Shown: piece by piece, positions 17,848 to 25,342 of the stretch | How positions within the stretch are numbered: the first letter of the stretch is position 1 | Layout of the letters: every line of letters begins with the position of its first letter | Source of the DNA: an uncultured Acholeplasmatales bacterium | GTDB lineage: Bacteria; Bacillota_I; Bacilli_A; Acholeplasmatales; Anaeroplasmataceae | Assembly (NCBI GenBank): GCA_944323055.1 | Contig: CALUQZ010000009.1 | Coordinates: forward strand, 1-52,737 | Direction of reading: 5' to 3' | Length of the DNA stretch: 52,737 nt | Notes under the pieces: model-generated | What the model saw: only the letters and a program-made list of their open reading frames with translations | What the model was told of the DNA's origin: nothing | Database searches by the model: none | Position numbers and translations under genes: made by a program

Positions 17848-20800
17848 TTAATTTACAAATAAGTTATATTCTTCTTCCTCTTCTTTTTCAGCTAAATCAC
17901 CAAAAACATGCATAAGCTCAAAATCATGGAAAAGCGATTGATTAATTTTAGTTCTTTTTAATACATCTTCTTTAGAAGTAAATGGTTTTTCATTTCGTTT
18001 ATTAACTATATCGATTGCTACTGAGGTACCTAAACCATCAACTGCAGCAAAAGGAATTCTTAAACCACCATCTTCAATTTTAAATTCAGTAGCTTCTGAT
18101 AGATTGATGTCTAGTGGTAAAAATTTAATATTTCTTGCTAACATTTCAAGAGCTACTGATAAAGATGTTAACAAATCATCATCTCTTGCTGTTTTATCAT
18201 CTTTATTATTAATTTCACTAATCATTGCTTTTATAGCTAGTTTACCACCTAGATATGCTTTAACAGAATGTAATTTAGCTCTAGTAGAAAACCAAGCTGA
18301 ATAAAACAATTCTGGTGAATAAACTTTAAACCAAGCAATTCTTAAAGCCATTAAAATATAGGCTGTCGCATGAGCTTTCGGGAACATGTATTGAATTTGT
18401 TCACATGACCAAATATACCAATTAGGAACTTTCTTTTCCAACATATATTCCTTGTATTTTAGCCATTTTTCTGGGTCTTTTTTAACTTTACCTTTACGGA
18501 CAAACTCCATTATTTCAAAAGCTTTTATCGGCTCTAGATTTTGATATAGCAAATAAACCATAATATCATCACGACATCCGATAACATCACTAAAAGGAAT
18601 TTTTCCAAACTCTGTTTTACCAAGTACTAAATCCTGTGAATTGCCATTCCAAACCCCTGTACCATGTGATAAACCTGATATTTTTACTAATTCAGCAAAT
18701 GTTTTAGGCATTGTTTCTGATAATAATTTACGTACAAAGTTTGTCCCTAATTCTGGTACTGCAAAAGAAGCTACTATTGAATCTATATCTTCTGGTTTTA
18801 CTCCTATAACATCTGTACAAGAAAATAACCTATAAACATTTTTATCATCAACCGGGATATCTTGTGGGCTAGAAAATGGATATTTATCTTGATGTAAATG
18901 AACATAATCCATCAAATATTTAATCATTGTCGGATCATCATGACCTAATATATCTAGTTTTAATAAGTTGTTTTCAAAACTATGATAATCATAATGAGTT
19001 GTGCGCCATTCATTTTCTGTATTATCAGCCGGATATTGAATAGGCGTTACATCAAAGATATCAACGTAATGAGGCACAACAATTATGCCTCCTGGATGTT
19101 GACCGGTTGAACGTCTAACGTTTACAAGTTTAGTAGATAACCTATCAATTTCACAGGAACGCAAATTAATATGCTTTCTTTCACAATATCCTTTTACATA
19201 ACCAAAAGCATTTTTCTCAGCTAATTTTGAAATTGTTCCACCTCTAAAGGCATTTTCATTTCCCATAAATTCTCTAACAAATGCATGGGCCTTACTTTGA
19301 TAATCACCACTAAAATTTAAATCAATATCTGGTACTTTATCCCCGTTAAAACCTAAGAATGTTTCAAAAGGAATATCATGACCATCCTTAACTAATTTGG
19401 TATGGCAATGTGGGCAGTAAGCTTCTGGTAGATCGTAACCACTTTCAACGCTTTGTAAAACTTCATAAAAATCCTTATCATCACTAGTCATACCATATTC
19501 TTTTTGTTCATCTTCATTCATCTTAAAGACTTGAAATTTACAATTAGGACAACGATAATGAGGCGCTAACGGATTAATTTCTGTAATATGCATCATAGTA
19601 GCTACTAAAGATGAGCCGACACTACCTCTTGAACCTACTAAATAACCATCACTTAATGATTTAGTAACTAACAAGTGACTCATATAATATACAGAGGAAT
19701 AGCCATTAGAAATAATGGAATTTAATTCTCTCTCTAATCTCTTTTTAACAATTGGGTGCGGATTTTCTCCATAATATTTTAAAACATTCTCATTAACAAT
19801 TCGTTTTAATTCAGCATTAATACTTGGAATATGTAATGAGCTATCCTTAAATTCATCATCTCTAGGTGCATACATTTCTTTTGGGAAAGGTCTAACTTTT
19901 TCAATAGAATCAGCTATTAAATTAGTATTTGTAACAACTATTTGATAGGCTTGACTTTCTTCTAAAAAATTAAACTCTTCAAGCATTTCATCAGTCGTTC
20001 TAATATGCATTAAAGGTGAATTGTTATATCTATTTAATCTATGATATTTGCCACCTATTTGCGGTGAACCAATTAAGATATCCCGATATTTTTTATCAGT
20101 CTTTTTAATATAATGACAATCAGATGTAGCTACAACGATTTTTCCTAATTCATTTGCCGCTTTTAAAATCTTTTTAATTGCAGCTAAAACAGCTTCATGA
20201 CCATTAGTTATATCATCATCTAAATGACTATAAGCTAATGGAGGTTGTACTTCTATATAATCATAATATGTCATTAATTCTTTTAATTTATCATAATCAC
20301 CATTTAATGCTTCTTCAAAAATTTCACCATTGACACAACCTGAACCTACTAAAATTCCTTCTCTATAATTTGATAAAACACTTTTTAATAACCTTGGTTC
20401 TTCAGCACAGTGAACAGTTAAGGCATCAGATAAAAGCTTATACATATTTTTAAGCCCTATTTGAGTTTTAACTAACATATTAATATGTTTTGGGATGACA
20501 TATTTATATAATACATCAGGAACTATTTGATTAATATCTTTGTAATTATCTACGCCTTTATTAAAAATTTCTTGTAACATTAAAACAAAACATTCAGCTG
20601 TAACTCTAGTATCATCAATAGCTCTATGGTGATGAAGTTGTTTAACTTTATAATATTTAGCTAATTCTTCTAGGTTAAATCTTTTAACATCTGAATAATG
20701 TAAAGACCTAAATAAATTTAAAGTATCAATAATTGGATAATCTTTATAATCTAAATTAAGTCTTTTAATATTAGCATAAATCATACCTGTATCAAATGAT

Positions 20801-22287
20801 GCATTATGAGCTACTAAAATACTATCACCAACAAAATCTAAGAATTCTGGTAAGATTTCTGCAATCGTTCTAGCATCTTTAACATCATCATTACTAATAG
20901 ATGTAAGTTCAGTAATCCGTTCTGAAATAAGCATTTCTGGATTAACAAAAGTCTCAAAACTAGCTATCTCACCATTTATGTCATATTTAGTAGCAGCAAT
21001 CTCAATAATTCTATCATTATCTTGACTAAAACCGGTTGTTTCTAAGTCAAATATAACATAAGTAGTCTCTTTTAAACTAATATCTCTATTAGTAAAAGCT
21101 ATTTTTAGATTATCATCATTAATATAATTTAACTCAAGACCAAAAATAGGCTTAATATCTTCATATTTATCCATTATATGAGCTACTTCAGGAATTGAAT
21201 ATACTCCATCATGATCAGTTATAGCAAGGGCTTTATGTCCCCATTTACTTACAGTTTCATAATAATCAGATGCAGTAGCTATACCATCTAAAGCACTCAT
21301 TTTAGTATGGGCATGTAATTCAACTCTCTTAACTTTCGCCTCATCTTTAATTTCTTCTTCTTTTTTCATTCCTAGTAGTTCAACTTTACTAGCCATAATT
21401 ATTACATTTCTAGCATAAGGATCATATTCCGCTTTACCGAGTACTCTAATTTGGTAATTAGGAACTAAACTATTATAAACCTTAATTTCGTCTTCGCCTC
21501 TCAACCATTTTTTAACAATAATAGAATCCGTATCATCTGTCATTTTGATTTGGGCTAAAGTAGAATTAGTAAATTGTTTTATTTCAACATCAAAAATATA
21601 ACCTTCAATTAAATATATAGTTATACCTTTAGTATTAGCATAAATAGCTAAATCATTAGATGTTTGTGGTATATCTTTAATAGCTGTTATTTCATTTACT
21701 TTATACGCTTTGAAATTTTTGCTATCATTTAATATCTTTTGATTATTTTGTAAAATTTTAGCCTCTTCATTCATTTTTCTTAACTCTTCTTTTTGTGTCT
21801 GTTCTAAAGCTTCTAATTCAGCATTAATACTTCTATTTGGATCTTGTTCAAAATCAATTGTTACATTTAACCCATATTTTTTAAATTCATTTTCAATATC
21901 AATTGCCACACTAGAAATACCAACTGCATCTTGTTCAATCATATATGTAAAAGTATAGTCTTGATAAGTTGGTTTATTATTAACTAAAAATTGAAAACGA
22001 GGTAAATTACTAGCTAATTCATTTACTATATTAATTAAATACTCTCTTAAATCTTCTTCTGGTAATGTTTTATTTTCATAAACAATATCTAAATTAATTT
22101 TGATATTATCACCTTTAAAATAATTTAAAAGTGATTCTTTAAATTTAATGTAATTATTATATTTTAAAGGTCTATTAAATTTAAAAACAACATCAAGTTC
22201 TTTCCTAATTTTATCATAAACAACCTTGTTAATCTCATATGAATTAGTACTATCATTTAAAATTTCATCTAAAAAGCCTAAATTCAT
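17848..22287 (-). CDS. polC: DNA polymerase III alpha subunit, PolC type
   Basis: A 1479-residue replicative polymerase with built-in proofreading. Order: N-terminal domain (1-200), OB fold (about 205-300), PHP domain (VELHAHTKMSALDGIA, ALAITDHDGV), an inserted DnaQ-like 3'-5' exonuclease (VIFDLETTGFSQ, VAHNASFDTGM, HHRAIDDTRVTAE), the second PHP part, then the polymerase palm with the catalytic PDIDLNFSGD. The PolC zinc site CPNC...CPHCH is just before the palm. The C-terminus has the HhH and fingers regions. Length is normal (about 1440-1470). The start has GGAGGGGG upstream and overlaps the DUF1189 stop (ATGA). Confidence 0.98.
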   Translation of the reverse strand: MNLGFLDEILNDSTNSYEINKVVYDKIRKELDVVFKFNRPLKYNNYIKFKESLLNYFKGDNIKINLDIVYENKTLPEEDLREYLINIVNELASNLPRFQFLVNNKPTYQDYTFTYMIEQDAVGISSVAIDIENEFKKYGLNVTIDFEQDPNRSINAELEALEQTQKEELRKMNEEAKILQNNQKILNDSKNFKAYKVNEITAIKDIPQTSNDLAIYANTKGITIYLIEGYIFDVEIKQFTNSTLAQIKMTDDTDSIIVKKWLRGEDEIKVYNSLVPNYQIRVLGKAEYDPYARNVIIMASKVELLGMKKEEEIKDEAKVKRVELHAHTKMSALDGIATASDYYETVSKWGHKALAITDHDGVYSIPEVAHIMDKYEDIKPIFGLELNYINDDNLKIAFTNRDISLKETTYVIFDLETTGFSQDNDRIIEIAATKYDINGEIASFETFVNPEMLISERITELTSISNDDVKDARTIAEILPEFLDFVGDSILVAHNASFDTGMIYANIKRLNLDYKDYPIIDTLNLFRSLHYSDVKRFNLEELAKYYKVKQLHHHRAIDDTRVTAECFVLMLQEIFNKGVDNYKDINQIVPDVLYKYVIPKHINMLVKTQIGLKNMYKLLSDALTVHCAEEPRLLKSVLSNYREGILVGSGCVNGEIFEEALNGDYDKLKELMTYYDYIEVQPPLAYSHLDDDITNGHEAVLAAIKKILKAANELGKIVVATSDCHYIKKTDKKYRDILIGSPQIGGKYHRLNRYNNSPLMHIRTTDEMLEEFNFLEESQAYQIVVTNTNLIADSIEKVRPFPKEMYAPRDDEFKDSSLHIPSINAELKRIVNENVLKYYGENPHPIVKKRLERELNSIISNGYSSVYYMSHLLVTKSLSDGYLVGSRGSVGSSLVATMMHITEINPLAPHYRCPNCKFQVFKMNEDEQKEYGMTSDDKDFYEVLQSVESGYDLPEAYCPHCHTKLVKDGHDIPFETFLGFNGDKVPDIDLNFSGDYQSKAHAFVREFMGNENAFRGGTISKLAEKNAFGYVKGYCERKHINLRSCEIDRLSTKLVNVRRSTGQHPGGIIVVPHYVDIFDVTPIQYPADNTENEWRTTHYDYHSFENNLLKLDILGHDDPTMIKYLMDYVHLHQDKYPFSSPQDIPVDDKNVYRLFSCTDVIGVKPEDIDSIVASFAVPELGTNFVRKLLSETMPKTFAELVKISGLSHGTGVWNGNSQDLVLGKTEFGKIPFSDVIGCRDDIMVYLLYQNLEPIKAFEIMEFVRKGKVKKDPEKWLKYKEYMLEKKVPNWYIWSCEQIQYMFPKAHATAYILMALRIAWFKVYSPELFYSAWFSTRAKLHSVKAYLGGKLAIKAMISEINNKDDKTARDDDLLTSLSVALEMLARNIKFLPLDINLSEATEFKIEDGGLRIPFAAVDGLGTSVAIDIVNKRNEKPFTSKEDVLKRTKINQSLFHDFELMHVFGDLAEKEEEEEYNLFVN

Positions 22288-23069
22288 TTTGCCCCCTCCA
22301 CTTTAACTATACTTCTTATAGCAATGAAAAAATACAATACACTTAAAAACATTCCTAAATAACTTAAAAAACTAAAATTAAATAAAATGCTAGCTAAATT
22401 AAAAAATAAATAAGGTATTAATGCATGCAATAATAAAATAAACCGTAATTTACCACGAATTGATGGATTTACATTAAAGGCTAATAAAAAAGTAACTAGT
22501 AAAATAACACAAGATAAAAACAATAAATTAAAAGTTTCAACAACTGTATTAACAGCTAATAAAACCGGACTAATAACAGTAAATGGCAAGGAAATAAAGG
22601 AAGTTAAATTCATATAATCAATGTTAGTTGTATCTTTATTGATAGTAAAATCTCTAATGATAAATTCATTATAGTTAGCTTCTGTTAAAAAAGTTGTTCC
22701 TACATAAATAGATACACTATTAGTATTATACATAAAGTAAATATTATTAGCTTCATTCTTACTTGGATCATTAAAAAAACTATAAACAATATAATTACTT
22801 CCACTTAAAAAAGCATAACTTCTACTATCACCACTTAATGTGTTATCTTTAAATGCTAGATTAACTTCTTTATCATTAACAATAGTATTAATAATAGAAT
22901 TTCTATCATATAAAGATAAATCTTGACTCATATAGTAAACACCTAAATAAGCTAAAGCATTTAAGATTATAAATATCCCTAATAAAACCCAAATCTTCCA
23001 CATCTTTTCGATGATAAATTTACCCATAAAACGGGGATGTAATAAACAAATTCTAATTCTTTCTAGCAT
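22284..23069 (-). CDS. DUF1189-like membrane protein
   Basis: A 261-residue protein that resembles the DUF1189 family of Firmicutes. The N-terminus (MLERIRICLLHPRFMGKFI) is amphipathic and followed by one membrane span (WVLLGIFIILNALAYLGVYY), a predicted extracytoplasmic domain of about 110 residues, and four hydrophobic spans in the second half. Function is unknown. The start at 23069 has GGAGGT 5 bases upstream; an in-frame ATG at 23096 has none. It is translationally coupled to polC (ATGA) and begins 14 bases after the LeuRS-like gene, so the three form one transcript. Confidence 0.65.
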   Translation of the reverse strand: MLERIRICLLHPRFMGKFIIEKMWKIWVLLGIFIILNALAYLGVYYMSQDLSLYDRNSIINTIVNDKEVNLAFKDNTLSGDSRSYAFLSGSNYIVYSFFNDPSKNEANNIYFMYNTNSVSIYVGTTFLTEANYNEFIIRDFTINKDTTNIDYMNLTSFISLPFTVISPVLLAVNTVVETFNLLFLSCVILLVTFLLAFNVNPSIRGKLRFILLLHALIPYLFFNLASILFNFSFLSYLGMFLSVLYFFIAIRSIVKVEGAK

Positions 23070-23083
23070 TTTATACCTCCATT

Positions 23084-25048
23084 TTACAATGGCCAAACAG
23101 CATCAACAGCTAATTGTTTAGCATGTATTTCTTCATAATTTATATCTTCAGCTAAACAAGGACATACTATACTAATTAAAGTTAATAATGTTATACCTTG
23201 TTTTTTAGTTAAAGTTTCATTAAGCAAATAATTATTGATAAACTCTTCTAAATAAGTAATATACTTAGTCAAATCTAAGCTGACTAAAGCATCATATAAT
23301 TTATTTTGTAATTGATATAAAGGAAATTCTAAATTGTAATTAGATGCTAAAAAACCTCTTTTATAAATAGCTTTTATTCTATTTATAAACTGTTTATAAG
23401 CAAATATTTTATTTTCCGAAAAATATAAAGGTTCATCAATTTTAGTAGAAAAATAATATAATCTCAACGCATCAGCTCCATAAGCAGCAATTATATCATT
23501 TACTTTTATACAATTATTATTACTACGTTTAATATTATTACCATATTCATCATAAACAGGGGCAGCCATAATTATTTCTGCTTGTTTTAATAACTCTAAG
23601 TTCTCTTCTTTTTCTATTATCGAAATAAAAATAATAGGTAATAATAAATTATTGACTAAATCATTTTTATTTACAATAATACATAAATTATTATACCATT
23701 TCTTAATATCTTTAATTACATCTTGACTCAAAATTTCAGTATCTTGAAATTTAGTATATAAAACTGGTAATAATAATTCTATACCTTTTAAAAAGTGATG
23801 ATTAATTGTAAAATCTAACAATTTAACAATTGGCAAATCTTTTTCATTATTCATTTTGATTTGACCGTTCTTATTATAATATAAAGGAATTTGTTTTTCT
23901 AATAATATTAAATTATTATTTTTTAAAGCTAATGGAAAAATAGCTCCATATTTATCTAAACTACTAATTAATATTTCTTTTTTAGCATATGTTTGATAGC
24001 TTGTAGCAATCCCTTCTTCTTTAAAAGTTTCTACTATTTTAAGACGAGCTTCTTCTTTAGTTAAACCATTTAAAAAATCGCTATTAATTAAATATGAACC
24101 ATCATAAATATCTATTACATCTAATCCTAATTCTAAGATTACCTCTTTATCTTCTATACTAAATAATGGTTTAATAGCCATATCATAGCTATCACCTATA
24201 AAAATAGGGATTTGTTTTCCAGTTAAAGGATTAGTTGAATAATTACCTGTAAATAAATATTTTTTATGTTTATGAATTAAATAATTTTCAACCGCAAAGA
24301 TTTCTCTAGGGCTTATATATTCTAAAATATCTACATAATTAGGATTAATAATAATAGCTGTAAGGCTGGCTAATTCTTCTGGTTTAGTTAATTTAATTTT
24401 AAATTCTTTTTTATTAGTTGTCATTAGCGTAATAACTAAACTAGTATAAGCTTTCAATTTATTTAATAAATATTCTTTATCATTTTCTGTTAAATTTAGT
24501 TCTGCTAAATGTTTTGTTATATTATCTAAATAGTTAGAAAAATCTAAAACTAATACTTTTTCATTCACTAAATCATGTCCGTTAGTCAAACTAATTTCAT
24601 CATATAGTTTATTTTCTTCTTTATAAATATGATAATCTTTATATTTTATAGCGCCTTTATTAAATAGATAAACAACAAATTTTTCTATTAAAGTCATTAT
24701 ATCTAATTCATTATTACAAATTAATTTATTTTTCGGATAACCTATATTTAATTTTGCTAATTCTGTTAAATAAGCTTCTAGTAAATCTTGATTTTTATTT
24801 AAATGATTACCAGTTAAAAAAGAACTATAAGATTGTGTATCAAAACCAATTGTATTTATGACATTTAAACCTTTAAAACGATAATATCTAGCTAAACTAT
24901 CAGCATATAAGTATGGTCTAAAATCAGCATGTAAAAAGCCTAAATGATTTGGTTTTATAAAATTAGTTGTCACTAATTGGTTCTTTTTTAAAACATTATT
25001 TTCAACTTCAAAATAGTTGTTTTTTTGCCATGTTTTATACCAATCCAT
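23084..25048 (-). CDS. Leucyl-tRNA synthetase paralogue with degenerate active site
   Basis: A 654-residue class I synthetase-like protein that aligns along its length to LeuRS: KTWQKNNYFEVE at the N-terminus, LARYYRFKGLNVINTIGFD (LeuRS ARYxRMxGxNVLxPxGWD), an editing-domain-like block (NPLTGKQIPIFIGD, LINSDFLNGLTKEEA), ILISSLDKYGAIFPLAL (LeuRS LxSRQRYWGEPIPxx), VNDIIAAYGADALRLYYF, and CPCLAED...AVWPL. The catalytic motifs are gone: HIGH is HADF (residues 40-43), GWDAFGLPAE is GFDTQSYSSF, the editing VPAHDERD region is LFSIEDKE, and KMSKS is NIKRSN (505-510). It ends at the WP that in LeuRS precedes the C-terminal tRNA-binding domain. Aminoacylation is therefore unlikely, and another LeuRS must exist. 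The uninterrupted frame, normal AGGAGG and placement in the polC transcript suggest a retained function, perhaps binding or regulatory. Confidence 0.82.
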   Translation of the reverse strand: MDWYKTWQKNNYFEVENNVLKKNQLVTTNFIKPNHLGFLHADFRPYLYADSLARYYRFKGLNVINTIGFDTQSYSSFLTGNHLNKNQDLLEAYLTELAKLNIGYPKNKLICNNELDIMTLIEKFVVYLFNKGAIKYKDYHIYKEENKLYDEISLTNGHDLVNEKVLVLDFSNYLDNITKHLAELNLTENDKEYLLNKLKAYTSLVITLMTTNKKEFKIKLTKPEELASLTAIIINPNYVDILEYISPREIFAVENYLIHKHKKYLFTGNYSTNPLTGKQIPIFIGDSYDMAIKPLFSIEDKEVILELGLDVIDIYDGSYLINSDFLNGLTKEEARLKIVETFKEEGIATSYQTYAKKEILISSLDKYGAIFPLALKNNNLILLEKQIPLYYNKNGQIKMNNEKDLPIVKLLDFTINHHFLKGIELLLPVLYTKFQDTEILSQDVIKDIKKWYNNLCIIVNKNDLVNNLLLPIIFISIIEKEENLELLKQAEIIMAAPVYDEYGNNIKRSNNNCIKVNDIIAAYGADALRLYYFSTKIDEPLYFSENKIFAYKQFINRIKAIYKRGFLASNYNLEFPLYQLQNKLYDALVSLDLTKYITYLEEFINNYLLNETLTKKQGITLLTLISIVCPCLAEDINYEEIHAKQLAVDAVWPL

Positions 25049-25072: not shown

Positions 25073-25099
25073 AAAATACTGTGTCAAACACAGTATTTT
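25073..25099 (-). terminator. Terminator/attenuator between acpP and the LeuRS-like gene
   Basis: The perfect hairpin AAAATACTGTG / CACAGTATTTT lies 4 bases after the acpP stop and is followed on the minus strand by TTTTTT. It sits only about 13 bases upstream of the AGGAGG of the LeuRS-like gene, so the polC unit would depend on read-through unless it has its own promoter. Confidence 0.75.
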
Positions 25100-25102
25100 A
25101 TT

Positions 25103-25342
25103 TTACTTTTTAGATTTTTGTTCTATATAAGTAACTAAGTCACCAACTGTTTTAATATCTACTAATTCTTCATTAGGAATAGATATATTAAAACGTTCTT
25201 CTAATTCCATAATAATTTCTACTGCATCTAAGCTATCAGCACCTAAATCTTTACCAATTTCTGATTCAAGTGTAACTTTTTCAATGTCTACATTATCTAA
25301 GTTATTAGCAATCGCTTCTTTTACGCTTTCAAATACTGTCAT
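25103..25342 (-). CDS. acpP: Acyl carrier protein
   Basis: A 79-residue carrier of growing acyl chains. The phosphopantetheine attachment site is Ser37 in LGADSLDAVEIIMELEE, preceded by the usual helix 1 (VFESVKEAIANNL) and followed by helix 3-4 (IKTVGDLVTYIEQK). The start at 25342 has GGAGGAAT upstream; an in-frame start five codons earlier has none. A possible -10 TATACT lies about 20 bases upstream. No other fatty-acid genes are adjacent, but a lipid kinase precedes it. Confidence 0.95.
   Translation of the reverse strand: MTVFESVKEAIANNLDNVDIEKVTLESEIGKDLGADSLDAVEIIMELEERFNISIPNEELVDIKTVGDLVTYIEQKSKK

Follow-up and report, generated by a model that had tools for sequence, protein, structure and literature searches.

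A LeuRS-like protein without the class I signature motifs, most likely a displaced native synthetase, is conserved behind acpP in a family of Acholeplasmatales

Genes at the locus

The stretch of DNA analyzed here (the window) comprises 52,737 nucleotides of contig CALUQZ010000009.1 from an uncultured Acholeplasmatales bacterium (GCA_944323055.1). On its reverse strand, a gene for a LeuRS-like protein lies between acpP and a gene for a small membrane protein, which is followed by polC (Table 1). The LeuRS-like frame begins with an ATG at position 25048, preceded by the Shine-Dalgarno sequence AGGAGG, and runs for 654 codons with 0 stops; the chance of a random open frame of this length at 22% GC is approximately 3e-31. 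The protein matches TIGR00396 (leuS_bact) with an E-value of 3.6e-22 and 78.3 bits, which does not reach the curated cut-off of 548.4, and it matches PF00133 (E 1.1e-08) as a LeuRS-type sequence far under the curated cut-off. The initial annotation, which described an intact, LeuRS-like frame, was thus correct on this point. We refer to the gene and its counterparts as dead, as judged from their motifs (see below).

For comparison we used the window's own family (f1) and other families of the same order (f2, f3, f4, and f5, of which f3 and f5 are Acholeplasmataceae-type). The genomes are mostly metagenome assemblies, and the named relatives are MAGs labeled Acholeplasmatales or Anaeroplasmataceae. 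The TIGR00396 scores of other dead copies vary widely (438 bits in f2, and 68 and 115 bits for f1 loci L057 and L039, respectively), and a TIGR00396 search with the f4 copy gave no match.

Table 1. Genes and features at the LeuRS-like locus (positions in the window)
Feature	Position	Strand	Remarks
acpP, acyl carrier protein	25103..25342	(-)	PF00550; directly upstream of the dead LeuRS gene
Terminator-like hairpin with U tract	25073..25099	(-)	Between acpP and the LeuRS-like gene
LeuRS-like protein gene	23084..25048	(-)	654 aa; catalytically dead by motifs; without C-terminal tail domain
HIGH-equivalent, residues 39-42 (LHAD)	24923..24934	(-)	Alignment
WDAFGLPAE-equivalent, residues 69-77 (FDTQSYSSF)	24818..24844	(-)	Alignment
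CP1 (editing) domain, approximately residues 198-356	23981..24457	(-)	Boundaries approximate; aligned to E. coli 224-417
Thr-rich editing motif (TTRPDT equivalent), residues 220-225 (LTKPEE)	24374..24391	(-)	Alignment
TGNYSTNPLTG, residues 267-277	24218..24250	(-)	Among the family's most conserved stretches
D300 (E. coli D345)	24149..24151	(-)	Retained in 46/46 dead copies, three families
SSLD at the RQRYWG loop, residues 362-365	23954..23965	(-)	Family-specific S363 (36/43) and D365 (37/43)
KMSKS-equivalent NIKRS, residues 505-509	23522..23536	(-)	Alignment
Small membrane protein gene	22284..23069	(-)	Stop overlaps polC start (ATGA)
polC, DNA polymerase III PolC-type	17848..22287	(-)	

The order acpP, LeuRS-like gene, small membrane protein gene, and polC is conserved, a point raised in the initial annotation. 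The membrane protein occurs family-wide at approximately 20-56% identity and is fast-evolving (dN/dS up to 0.24). It had been taken for a DUF1189 protein, an identity without Pfam support, as a Pfam search of 22284-23069 gave no match. Other genera have a radical SAM-like gene, encoded on the opposite strand (L042, 6852-7799; L039, 11603-12553), that separates the LeuRS-like gene from the membrane protein gene linked to polC; it is absent from this place in the window's genus.

The single transcript originally proposed is not borne out as written, because a terminator-like hairpin separates acpP from the LeuRS-like gene; the latter may plausibly be co-transcribed with the membrane protein gene and polC. 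Of the f1 loci and genera checked, nearly all have such a hairpin after acpP (the window, L033, L035-L050, L055-L060, and L068), with stems that are unrelated between genera, so that the architecture is conserved and the sequence is not. Hairpins also precede the intact leuS of f3 and f5. Given this hairpin, the dead gene is likely driven by read-through or by a promoter inside acpP and would be expressed below the level of acpP. An Rfam search of the region near acpP gave neither a leucine T-box nor any other RNA element at the gathering score.

Loss of the synthetic site

We assessed the motifs in a 92-row alignment of dead copies with E. coli LeuRS and 45 intact LeuRS sequences, and counted 43 f1 copies. 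At the HIGH site, the first His is gone in 43/43 of these and the second in 42/43. The loss of HIGH stated in the initial annotation therefore stands, but the residues given for it (HADF) do not, the aligned site being L39-H40-A41-D42. The loss of KMSKS and the replacement of the GWDAFGLP pocket were also correctly called, and align as NIKRS and FDTQSYS, respectively (WDAFGLP being replaced by FDTQSYS); each of the two KMSKS lysines is retained in only 7/43 f1 copies. In addition, RQRYWG is replaced by SLDKYG in the window protein, and the GGxEH motif is gone. The losses at HIGH, WDAFGLP, RQRYWG, GGxEH, and KMSKS hold throughout the 43 f1 copies, and the copies of all relatives show the same losses. 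Misalignment can be ruled out as the cause, given that the losses stand in the 92-row alignment and most motif residues are present in 45/45 intact LeuRS.

HIGH and KMSKS, which mark a functional LeuRS, are thus both missing from the dead copies. As far as sequence can tell, the non-catalytic reading of the initial annotation holds, and the dead protein would have lost all aminoacylation. Of the possible jobs named in the initial annotation, which include leucine or tRNA sensing and a place in a complex, leucine sensing through the synthetic site appears unlikely because all of its pocket motifs are gone.

Fold, editing domain, and tRNA contacts

An AF2 model of the window protein (pLDDT 89.6, pTM 0.87), built from an alignment of 30 family sequences only, has the whole LeuRS fold except for the C-terminal tail domain. 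Its best PDB matches are nearly all LeuRS (Z 30-36) and span the whole chain (residues 1-654). In the VIA structure comparison, Z was 36.4 to 5ah5 and 35.6 to 3ziu, the latter with an rmsd of 2.6 across 495 residues. The rmsd to full-length LeuRS is large (10-13 A), probably because the CP1 domain is positioned differently.

The tail domain that follows WPL has 0 residues in every dead copy vs. 70 in intact LeuRS. The f4 copy, the most shrunken at 517 aa, has also lost parts of the catalytic core; 163 CP1 residues and 120 helical-domain residues remain, and these are modeled mostly at pLDDT 80-93. CP1 and the helical domain are the core common to the dead copies of f1, f2, and f4.

The main rival to the binding or scaffold role proposed below is a tRNA-dependent regulator, in which the core and helical domain would bind tRNA-Leu (or another tRNA) so that the protein could monitor charging or protect the tRNA. 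It draws on the anticodon-type helical domain, which is present in all complete dead copies and is kept even in the shrunken f4 protein, and on earlier examples of duplicated LeuRS with tRNA binding but little or no charging activity (PMC9437257). However, the tail domain is gone from all copies, and conserved arginines of the tRNA-end and editing sites have been replaced, some with reversal of charge (in f1, R426 to D in 37/43, R424 to S in 36/43, and R344 to E or D in 24/43). The dead proteins are also more acidic (mean pI 4.98 vs. 5.73), although the window copy has a pI of 5.8. On balance, we consider such a regulator unlikely, but worth keeping in view.

The initial annotation had the editing motif HDERD replaced by IEDKE. 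In the alignment, this reading is shifted by two; the window protein has FSIED at HDxRD, so that four positions are indeed changed, but the loss is not complete, given that the second Asp (D345, here D300) is invariant. It is found in 43/43 f1 copies as well as in f2 and f4. The T252 position is E in the window copy and mostly Tyr in f1, and Thr occurs in 0/43 f1 copies and in 0/46 dead copies overall; T247, T248, M336, H341, and R344 are lost or nearly so. Thus, of T252 and D345, the two residues by which a LeuRS-type editing domain (PF13603) is recognized, only the second is present in f1. Could the domain nevertheless be a hydrolytic relic, which removes an amino acid from tRNA or another carrier in trans via its invariant Asp? 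The retention of D345 and the many invariant residues in CP1 would fit. We nevertheless think this improbable: Tyr places a bulkier side chain in the pocket, nearly all other editing residues are gone, and the active leuS has an editing site of its own. Moreover, the model suggests that D300 may simply have been retained to cap helix 301-306.

Distribution of the dead gene and its origin

The second copy that the initial annotation proposed to look for is present: a different contig of this genome carries an intact leuS (G000:C17:4438-6840). Its product includes the tail domain and falls among active LeuRS in the tree, which means that the organism still has an enzyme for leucine charging. The dead gene is present in 51/55 f1 genomes, and outside f1 we found copies in two f2 genomes and one f4 genome. 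Four f1 assemblies are without it: in G004, acpP was likewise not found; in G013, acpP stops at a contig edge; and in G138 and G148, the carrier-protein genes found are others only. (Another f1 genome, G011, has about five acyl carrier protein-like matches vs. one or two in others.) Nearly all of the 51 f1 genomes with a dead copy have an intact or contig-cut leuS. No intact leuS was detected in the assemblies of G031, G034, and G016, all of which carry the dead copy; these are likely, if not certainly, assembly gaps, although G031 and G034 are reported to be 95% and 99% complete, respectively. A contig search with the single protein found no relatives, and one with an alignment returned mostly intact LeuRS of other Bacillota. 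A class-wide search at E 1e-105 placed the family in f1 only; distant dead copies of the f2 and f4 type are not separable from intact LeuRS by score.

The position directly behind acpP is occupied by the dead gene in f1, f2, and f4, and by an intact leuS in f3 and f5 (6 loci). In a careful LeuRS tree, from which the f4 copy was left out owing to its long branch, the dead copies from f1 and f2 are united in a single clade, and this clade together with the f3/f5 leuS is separated from all other leuS with 100/99.8 support. An AU test rejected joining the dead clade to the active f1/f2 leuS (p-AU 0.009). It should be noted that the dead copies have very long branches and differing composition, so their placement may be partly pulled and the tree alone is insufficient; the shared position behind acpP provides independent support. 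The f2 copies are less diverged; in several domains, their identity to intact LeuRS averages 36-44%.

Among the active genes, the leuS of f1/f2 clusters with sequences from Erysipelotrichaceae and Clostridia, and that of f4 with Oscillospiraceae and Eubacteriaceae. The latter gene (L200, G038:C15) is of a Clostridia type, unlike that of f1/f2, so leuS was seemingly replaced more than once in the order, apparently by foreign genes of two kinds. As the PolC tree gave no resolved branching order for f1, f2, f4, and G013, inactivation may have happened once or several times.

The extra paralogue of the initial annotation thus gives way to a different history: judged by position and tree, the dead gene most likely represents the native, acpP-linked leuS, and the working copy would have arrived later from outside and displaced it. 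The direction of this replacement and transfer is inferred. Ordinary duplication of the active leuS within f1 could also put both copies into one genome, but is very improbable given the AU test and the position common to the native f3/f5 leuS.

The place directly behind acpP in three families might suggest a partnership between the dead protein and AcpP, in which the former could act, for instance, as an amino acid:carrier protein ligase-like protein (aaRS-like ligases of this kind exist; PMC9437257) or as an adaptor in lipid synthesis. However, the acpP-leuS order is ancestral and predates the decay, as the intact leuS of f3 and f5 shows, so the linkage is no sign of a shared job, and we rejected gene order as evidence for a partnership. 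Furthermore, no ATP-site motif remains and the hairpin stands between the two genes. We see little prospect for this explanation.

Selection on the dead gene

In seven close f1 genome pairs, the dN/dS of the dead gene is 0.043-0.147, compared with 0.029-0.069 for the active leuS and 0.029-0.085 for polC in the same pairs. The gene is thus under purifying selection, a check proposed at the outset. In one pair, differences per codon position number 34/22/112 and so fall mostly at third positions. The gene starts are conserved, with Shine-Dalgarno sites. There are 27 positions at which at least 80% of dead copies agree on a residue that is rare in intact LeuRS (e.g., D240, E249 [43/43], T276, S363, D365, F419, G422, P471, and Y596), which indicates new constraint and not only a remnant of the old one.

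Slow decay as a pseudogene is, in our view, scarcely credible. All of the catalytic motifs are gone, the dead gene usually evolves faster than the active leuS, the f2 pair is more relaxed (dN/dS 0.37), and the f4 copy is shortened. However, apart from the partial relaxation in f2, the relaxed selection, stops, and frameshifts of a pseudogene are not seen. Frames are open in almost every genome despite the 22% GC, the f1 ratios and the third-position excess show constraint, and the newly conserved residues and the high-confidence fold obtained from a family-only alignment do not fit decay.

Probable displacement of the synthetase and a probable second role

The reading that we favor, and hold to be somewhat better than an even bet, is that the native acpP-linked leuS was displaced by a leuS of other-Bacillota type and then kept, without catalysis, as a non-enzymatic protein. 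Under this proposal, the foreign leuS would have taken over tRNA-Leu charging, and the old LeuRS would have lost ATP, leucine, and tRNA-end binding (with HIGH, KMSKS, WDAFGLP, RQRYWG, and GGxEH) as well as its C-terminal tRNA-binding tail, while the full fold stayed. Selection would then have fixed new residues in CP1, the helical domain, and the loops of the former active site. A new job for the old protein is probable, and a non-catalytic binding or scaffold role appears most likely, in which CP1 and the helical bundle would be the working surfaces. That the family as a whole has co-opted its displaced LeuRS as a conserved and probably important protein without enzymatic function, with CP1 and the helical bundle as its binding module, is a proposition to which we give about equal odds either way.

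The dead gene is a LeuRS by fold and descent, and by its motifs it lacks what defines a working one. It resembles bacterial LeuS (TIGR00396) in its full fold, in its domain order (Rossmann core, CP1, helical anticodon-type domain), and in its place behind acpP, as in f3 and f5. It differs in being without the synthetic-site motifs and the tail, and in an editing site altered except at D345.

Dead synthetase-like proteins are already known as a broad class of aaRS-like proteins without aminoacylation. The present protein shares their fold, motif loss, and selective constraint, its loss of activity being read from the motifs, and a LeuRS with both class I motifs gone adds to the class. HisZ, the HisRS-like regulatory subunit of ATP phosphoribosyltransferase, has an aaRS fold without aminoacylation and binds a partner protein. 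The likeness to our case ends there, as HisZ has a class II fold and its partner is known. HisZ is among the aaRS-like proteins listed in a 2022 review (PMC9437257).

Closer by descent are the archaeal LeuRS duplicates, as far as they are summarized in that review. LeuRS-I of Sulfolobaceae (Weitzel 2020) cannot charge tRNA, still makes Leu-AMP, and binds tRNA-Leu; it is likewise a second LeuRS beside a working one, but the ATP and leucine motifs are gone only in the dead LeuRS described here, which is also the native gene. LeuRS2 of Halobacteria (Fang 2014), which binds tRNA-Leu, is again a duplicated LeuRS without an assigned role in the summary, but it still charges tRNA at a low level. Both have been proposed to sense charging or guard tRNA. 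The table of the review gives no paralogue function for LeuRS, and the LeuRS copies listed there are only those that still activate leucine or charge tRNA (PMC9437257). In a search of the open literature, with subscription papers largely outside it, we found no case of a displaced, non-catalytic LeuRS such as this.

The living genomes show the state before (intact leuS behind acpP in f3 and f5), a less diverged state (f2), and derived states (f1 and f4). This series makes it possible to ask why a displaced essential enzyme was kept, and whether a second function belonged to the LeuRS of this order from the outset. If our reading is true, a synthetase can lose its own reaction to a transferred gene and still stay, because its ancestor had, or gained, a second function.
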